From: Nanoarchaeota archaeon
GTDB taxonomy: Archaea; EX4484-52; LFW-46
Length of the DNA: 5,745 nt
Direction of reading: 5' to 3'
NCBI GenBank assembly: GCA_018897155.1
Contig: JAHILE010000051.1
Span: 1 to 5,745 of the forward strand
Shown piece by piece: positions 5,183 through 5,745 of the stretch. Position 1 is the stretch's first letter, and each line of letters opens with the position of its first letter. Made by a program: the position numbers and the translations under genes. Under the pieces are notes generated by a model. That model ran no database searches, had not been told where the DNA came from, and worked only from the letters and a program-made list of their open reading frames with translations.

Positions 5183-5186
5183 AAAT

Positions 5187-5191
5187 GGTGA
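5187..5191 (+). promoter_or_regulatory. Shine-Dalgarno GGTGA that decides the rpl14e start
   Basis: GGTGA, the core of the archaeal ribosome binding consensus, stands 5 bases before the ATG at 5197. It overlaps an in-frame upstream ATG at 5185, which has no such site. This selects the downstream start and a protein beginning MPAIETGRVC. Confidence 0.7.
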
Positions 5192-5196
5192 AAAAT

Positions 5197-5472
5197 ATGC
5201 CAGCTATAGAAACAGGCCGCGTCTGTGTAAAAACAGCGGGCAAAGATGCAGGAAAATATTGCGTGATTACGAAAGTCATTGACACGAGTTTTGTCGAGAT
5301 TACCGGGCCTAAAGCTTTGTCCGGCGTTGCAAGCCAGAAAACAAATATCAAACATCTGGAAGCAACAGCTGATAAGGTCGAAATAGCCGCCGGCGCAAAA
5401 GACGAAGACGTTCTTTCAGCAGTTGAAGCTGCGAAGCTTGATAAAAAATTTAAGGCAGGCGTGAAGATATAA
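5197..5472 (+). CDS. rpl14e: Large subunit ribosomal protein L14e (eL14)
   Basis: This is a large-subunit ribosomal protein of archaea and eukaryotes. The 91 residues begin with the family's KOW-like SH3 barrel: IETGRVCVKTAGKDAGKYCV, then VIDTSFVEITGP, and the conserved NIKHLEAT near residues 51-58. The C-terminal third is an Ala/Lys-rich helix (DEDVLSAVEAAKLDKKFK). A start at 5185 would add four residues, but the GGTGA site favours 5197. Length is normal for archaeal eL14. It ends 2 bases before the cbf5 ATG, the usual archaeal pairing, so the two are almost certainly co-translated. Confidence 0.95.
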   Translation: MPAIETGRVCVKTAGKDAGKYCVITKVIDTSFVEITGPKALSGVASQKTNIKHLEATADKVEIAAGAKDEDVLSAVEAAKLDKKFKAGVKI

Positions 5473-5474
5473 TT

Positions 5475-5745
5475 ATGCCGACGCAAACACTTCTTTTGAA
5501 GCAGGAATCCGAAACAGACGAAAAATACGGATGTGCGCCCCAGAATCGTAAAATCAAAGAGTATGTGATTAATGGGCTCGTCAATCTTGACAAGCCGCGC
5601 GGCCCGACATCGCATGAAGTTGCGGCGTGGGTGCGAAATATTTTTGGGAGTGTAAATACCCAAAAAGCTTCGAGTGAAGCGCAGCGAAACGAGATGATTT
5701 TTGGGAGTGTAAATACCCAAAAAGCTTCGAGTGAAGCGCAGCGAA
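5475..5745 (+). CDS. cbf5: Cbf5/TruB-family tRNA and rRNA pseudouridine synthase, 5' part, with in-frame repeat insertion
   Basis: Cbf5 is the catalytic subunit of the archaeal H/ACA ribonucleoprotein that turns uridines of rRNA into pseudouridine. Only the first 90 codons are in the window. After a variable N-terminus comes the conserved opening of the catalytic domain: GLVNLDKPRGPTSHEVAAWV (residues 35-54), as in archaeal Cbf5. The family normally continues with a short link to KAGHSGTLDP, which contains the catalytic Asp. Here the protein instead enters IFGSVNTQKASSEAQR, then NEM, then the same 16 residues again, and the window ends. The reading frame is kept, so this looks like an insertion between the first helix and the catalytic loop rather than a disruption. 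Whether the catalytic segment follows cannot be seen. The ATG sits 2 bases after the rpl14e stop; GTGA at 5461-5464 may be its ribosome site. Confidence 0.9.
   Translation, partial: MPTQTLLLKQESETDEKYGCAPQNRKIKEYVINGLVNLDKPRGPTSHEVAAWVRNIFGSVNTQKASSEAQRNEMIFGSVNTQKASSEAQR
5640..5745 (+). repeat. Two copies of a double-hairpin repeat, in frame inside cbf5
   Basis: Bases 5640-5688 and 5697-5745 are identical over 49 bases, with a 57-base period (19 codons). Each copy holds two palindromes: TTTTTGGG ... CCCAAAAA with a 10-base loop (5641-5666 and 5698-5723), and GCTTC-GAGT-GAAGC (5667-5680 and 5724-5737), then GCAGCGAA. The 8-base linker between copies is ACGAGATG. The window stops at the last base of the second identical stretch, so more copies may follow. 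This arrangement resembles palindromic elements that insert in frame into genes (known from Rickettsia), but homology to them is not claimed. Confidence 0.85.

Follow-up and report, generated by a model that had tools for sequence, protein, structure and literature searches.

A palindromic repeat within an archaeal cbf5 gene as a probable member of a dispersed element family held in frame in conserved genes

Palindromic insertions that remain in frame within protein-coding genes have so far been something of an oddity of bacteria, with Rickettsia as the best-known case; there, the short palindromic repeats termed 'RPEs' lie in intergenic DNA and also, in frame, within a wide range of unrelated conserved genes (PMC10969869, PMC2229807). 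In R. conorii, one gene interrupted by RPE-1 is truB (PMC3733652), which is the bacterial relative of cbf5. The RAYT-associated GTAG and CGTC REPs are stem-loops of 20-40 bp, arranged in tandem or in pairs, some of which lie within genes (including uvrA and uvrB) and code for 20-30 amino acids (PMC3733652). Finally, the 'double-hairpin' elements described from the mitochondria of Allomyces and other fungi comprise two hairpins per unit, and are optional between relatives (PMC7218506).

The stretch of archaeal DNA analysed here ('the window') is 5,745 b long and represents the entire contig C51 of a MAG from a DPANN-type archaeon (62 contigs, 1.43 Mb, 96% complete). The contig stops at position 5745, within a repeat in cbf5, and the repeat stops there for that reason. 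A reading of this DNA from sequence alone had described a perfect repeat in the cbf5 frame, and this description holds: 49 nt (5640-5688 and 5697-5745) recur with 100% identity at a spacing of 57, and both copies are in frame with an ORF (5475-5744, plus strand) whose first 49 residues match the Cbf5 DKCLD domain. The same sequence-only reading took the element to be 49 bases long; its palindromic character was borne out, but the repeating unit is better drawn as a left hairpin (arms at 5641-5648 and 5659-5666) followed by a core, for a total of 57 nt, with 49 nt remaining only where the contig stops (Table 1). Its location ahead of the Cbf5 catalytic loop was confirmed by comparison with the only available relative from the same genus (G001), in which the corresponding stretch reads WVRNIFSQFGVTKAGHSGTLDP. 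That stretch equals the window's in length, and the left hairpin might either have replaced native residues or have arrived with the element.

Table 1. Features at the right-hand end of the window
Feature	Position	Strand	Basis
KOW / ribosomal L14e-like gene directly upstream of cbf5	5185-5472	+	Pfam KOW, 4e-5; L14e, 0.004, under cut-off
5' part of cbf5 (rRNA pseudouridine synthase), open at contig end	5475-5745	+	ORF; DKCLD (Pfam), E 6e-19; alignment to intact Cbf5 proteins, among them that of G001
Repeat unit 1, 57 nt = 19 codons, left hairpin + family-A core	5641-5697	+	Period 57; architecture common to most family copies
Left hairpin TTTTTGGG-agtgtaaata-CCCAAAAA, 8 bp	5641-5666	+	Sequence; RNAfold
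Family-A core GCTTCGAG-stem-CGAGATGA	5667-5697	+	Covariance model R1, 60.5 bits
Repeat unit 2, broken off by contig end	5698-5745	+	Sequence; direct repeat; contig boundary

The repeat is not confined to cbf5. A BLASTN comparison against the genome placed it at 45 sites, and because dozens of related copies are found elsewhere in the genome it lies far beyond what chance would produce. The search of the source genome and its relatives that had been proposed from the sequence was carried out with a covariance model (R1, built after the alignment of 30 copies and applied at E<=0.01), and it yielded 63 copies in this genome, among which the C51 core is the top match, and 55 in the congener. The latter is MAG LFW-46 (CABMCT01), placed by its authors in p__EX4484-52 as a sister to Nanohaloarchaeota (PMC8561730). 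Elsewhere in the order, 13 of 32 genomes contain between 1 and 10 copies, and none was detected in 27 genomes of archaea outside it; nor did Rfam return a match at gathering score in nine of the loci that bear copies.

The part common to the copies can be written as AAAAGCTTCGA-[variable stem]-CGAGATGATTTT. In most of them a second hairpin (TTTT...AAAA), with a stem that varies from copy to copy, lies upstream of the conserved core hairpin (GCTTCGA-stem-CGAGATGA), giving a unit of 42-66 nt where measured. A pattern with a fixed gap of 19 N found no match in the genome, since the core stem varies in length, and variable-gap patterns were used in its place, along with the covariance model. The arms of the hairpin structure covary (a score of 0.158, versus 0.082 for shuffled alignments; 0/500), and the signal vanishes when the partner is slid by 1-3 columns. 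The core-adjacent arm has a reverse complement of at least 8 nt upstream in 39 of 65 copies, versus ~4% when upstream sequences are swapped between copies, and at the fourth and fifth bases outside the core the two ends pair with each other in 50 and 35 of 65 copies, respectively (40.8 and 16.6 expected; 0/500 shuffles). A 'family B' (AAAAGCCGAGAG...GAACGGATTTT and AAAAGCCTAGAG...GAAAGGATTTT), which agrees with family A in its frame and left hairpin, was represented by at least 19 copies in 252 kb of sequence read; in chains linked at runs of T and A, family-A copies alternate with those of family B (AAAAGCC..GGATTTT) and with additional hairpin modules (L048:2400-3000 and other loci of this genome). 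The majority of copies are intergenic, those that no frame spans lying mainly in gaps between ORFs, and insertion has occurred at short T-rich targets, with T-rich direct repeats on the flanks.

Other copies lie within the ORFs of conserved proteins, namely those for methionyl-tRNA synthetase (metG), RlmH, an aminotransferase, a methyltransferase, UvrC (which holds two copies), KsgA, PEP synthase (ppsA), topoisomerase I (topA), a glycosyltransferase, GatA, GatB and a leucyl-tRNA-synthetase-like protein, with an additional copy at the C-terminus of UvrA. NCBIfam supports the family assignment of ten proteins scanned, and in the interrupted genes long family matches persist on both sides of the insert. 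All twelve genes tested against orthologues in the congener have a clean empty site there, the inserts amounting to 14-36 aa: RlmH, for example, reads GRNDL[ISNHSQTDLGWKASSGAKQNEM]IFVIGG as compared to GRNDLIFVIGG, and topoisomerase reads YENE[KIISQSSKLFEQGS]KIEKEA as compared to YENEKIEKEA. (The congener's methyltransferase, L175, has a different in-frame insert of its own, FGTQSSQKLAERHD, elsewhere in the gene.) The intragenic units are free of stop codons, and their length is 3n in all 11 measurable cases versus 18 of 32 other copies, a comparison in which in-frame cases are favoured by the choice of genes whose ORF spans a copy. Among five flanking gene pairs checked with Pfam, only one gene, for a glycosyltransferase truncated beside palindromic copies (L047:1739-2640), may have been broken by the elements. 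Translation of the core would proceed through either strand and through several frames, and because copies run both ways in this manner it is the DNA or RNA hairpin that is conserved, while the peptide is incidental. The peptide IFGSVNTQKASSEAQR, which the sequence-only reading had noted, is indeed encoded twice in frame in the window, but it is one product among several of the same hairpin.

Cbf5 itself provides a second case. Alignment with the proteins of relatives beyond the genus identified, in a genome from another family of the order (G012), an insert KPQLEKPGTSEASERIF after WVRDIF, at the point corresponding to the window's insertion, where its sister genomes read WVRDIFSLKKAGHSGTLDP. 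The DNA of this insert, within cbf5 at L152:318-1373, is a family-B unit (TTTTCAAG..CTTGAAAA-GCCGGGAACG..GAACGGA) flanked by two copies of ATTTTC, and the empty site in the sisters is GACATTTTC|TCACTC. The G012 protein has its full length, and when it is aligned along solved chains of archaeal Cbf5 the insert appears as a gap. Its insertion is independent of that in the window, and in view of both the insert and the full-length alignment, related palindromes have entered Cbf5 at one site on two occasions, and at least one of them is retained in a full-length frame. The proposal that an archaeal palindromic element is tolerated in frame within an essential gene, in parallel with the RPEs, is thereby upheld, by this independent insertion and by the precise empty sites in the congener for twelve other genes.

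Among the described systems, the RPEs would appear to be the closest kin in behaviour, in that the archaeal palindromic repeat is likewise in frame in protein genes (12 genes, in addition to cbf5). Measured against RPE descriptions, however, the archaeal element does not appear to be a member of that group: an RPE is ~105-146 bp in length and encodes one conserved peptide, whereas the archaeal unit measures 42-66 nt and is found in several frames, on either strand. The element falls outside the REP classes as well, because their tags are absent (the archaeal ends carry GTAG in 0 of 65 copies and CGTC in 1 of 65), and at the four Y1 loci of the genus no RAYT (Y1) gene is flanked by the archaeal core. 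The double-hairpin elements of fungal mitochondria resemble the archaeal unit in their two hairpins, in their variable stems and in a presence that is optional between relatives, but they reside in organelle DNA, and are not known to be used in frame as widely as the archaeal family.

The evidence taken together makes it very probable that the repeat belongs to a dispersed family of non-autonomous palindromic elements, from one DPANN-type order and held in frame in conserved genes. It is dispersed, its arms covary, it is present or absent between congeners, and its insertions in conserved genes are exactly in frame, whichever way the copy points and in more than one frame. An explanation of the inserts as archaeal pre-mRNA introns, cut by the tRNA-splicing endonuclease, draws on the wealth of hairpins in the element and on a proven crenarchaeal intron in the same gene and at a nearby position (PMC2738675). 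That intron, however, is assigned inside the catalytic Asp codon, whereas the window insert precedes KAGHSGTLDP, has no bulge-helix-bulge (BHB) and is an in-frame 3n unit from a dispersed family; moreover, no genic unit departs from 3n length or contains a stop, a constraint that would not apply to an intron. The canonical BHB intron was rejected, with 0 of 14 insert sites fitting it and BHB scores that mostly resemble those of control positions, and introns are accordingly a very unlikely explanation. Least probable of all are two further suggestions. One, that the window's cbf5 is a pseudogene or that the family marks decaying genes, could appeal to the absence of the downstream half of cbf5 from the assembly; yet Cbf5, which is expected to be essential, is present in 29 of the 34 genomes of the order, the window's frame is open and undamaged as far as the contig end, and the other interrupted genes retain long family matches on both sides. 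The other, that the peptide module encoded by the repeat is useful and under selection at the protein level, could appeal to the recurrence of peptides of the KASSEAQRNEM type in Cbf5, RlmH, GatB and UvrA; yet elsewhere the element is read in different frames and in antisense (NHLADGSKL, SSRSANASLEAFE, KIISQSSKLF), and most copies are intergenic.

The position of the repeat at a contig end also raises the question of whether the tandem copy, or the whole repeat, might be an assembly artefact or chimera. The contig stops exactly inside copy 2, the remainder of cbf5 (the catalytic TruB_N part) is missing from the rest of this assembly, and contigs C2, C46 and C23 (L053, L054 and L048) end in one identical family copy, with overlaps of 141 and 116 nt; because these three contigs also stop in a family copy, assembly breaks at repeats of the family are usual in this genome. 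Against this stand the twelve other genes that hold inserts well within contigs, the 55 copies in a congener that was assembled separately, the tandem copies within contig C59, and the first cbf5 copy being in frame with a genuine Cbf5 start, so that an artefact on this scale is highly improbable. For the second cbf5 copy alone, which may be a genuine tandem unit or may have arisen in assembly, an artefact is distinctly more conceivable, albeit still the unlikely outcome; the unit arrays of equal period inside contig C59 make a genuine tandem plausible. Recent duplication had been deduced from the two copies being perfectly identical: the identity stands, but it may partly reflect assembly at the contig end, and the empty sites offer firmer ground.

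As a dispersed non-autonomous family, the element would presumably spread as selfish DNA. Its cores seem to carry few stop codons, and insertions of 3n length may therefore survive selection, to be translated as 14-36 extra residues that presumably occupy loops, with most other copies persisting between genes. Two MITE-like traits were found, namely empty sites in the congener and T-rich direct repeats indicating a short target duplication; in the stretches around copies, no autonomous partner transposon with common ends was found. The mobilizing enzyme, the weakest part of this scheme, would act in trans, and might be a Y1/HUH (IS200/IS605-like) transposase, which is only a candidate. Y1 matches number three in the genome, all different genes (L194:1356-1829, L195:1541-2104 and L196:1963-2454), and one in the congener; several genomes that carry copies have no Y1 match. 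A Y1 transposase as a flanked partner is unsupported, none of these four loci being flanked by an element core.

A bolder suggestion, somewhat improbable in our estimation, is that the core-adjacent arms are written from the target, such that the ends pair and repeat a T-rich target (TTTNN...n'n'AAA-core-TTTNN). If the arms are indeed target-derived, then the element would choose or copy its target by base pairing, as part of a modular arrangement, families A and B having one frame in common (AAAAGC...GATTTT) and joining up in arrays; this would amount to a target-guided or self-templated insertion of hairpin DNA, undescribed in archaea.

In-frame hairpin insertion is known from bacteria such as Rickettsia, and the present case is its archaeal counterpart; no description of in-frame palindromic elements in archaea was found in the literature searched, which consisted mainly of open-licence papers. 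With dozens of copies, empty sites and independent insertions in Cbf5, such a counterpart would show that hairpin DNA repeatedly lengthens essential enzymes across domains, and it makes testable the tolerance, and perhaps the use, of these insertions by small genomes. It also serves as a warning for DPANN genomes, in which the inserts inflate the annotation of proteins and cause assemblies to break. Outside the archaea, matches to the core pattern in Hydrogenimonas and a Campylobacterales MAG (L085, L086, L099, L111 and others) proved to be parts of a longer repeat of several hairpins, which has its AAAGCTTCGA..CGAGATGATTT arms in common with the archaeal core; there it is intergenic except for two copies that overlap short ORFs; either kinship or convergence with the archaeal core could account for it.
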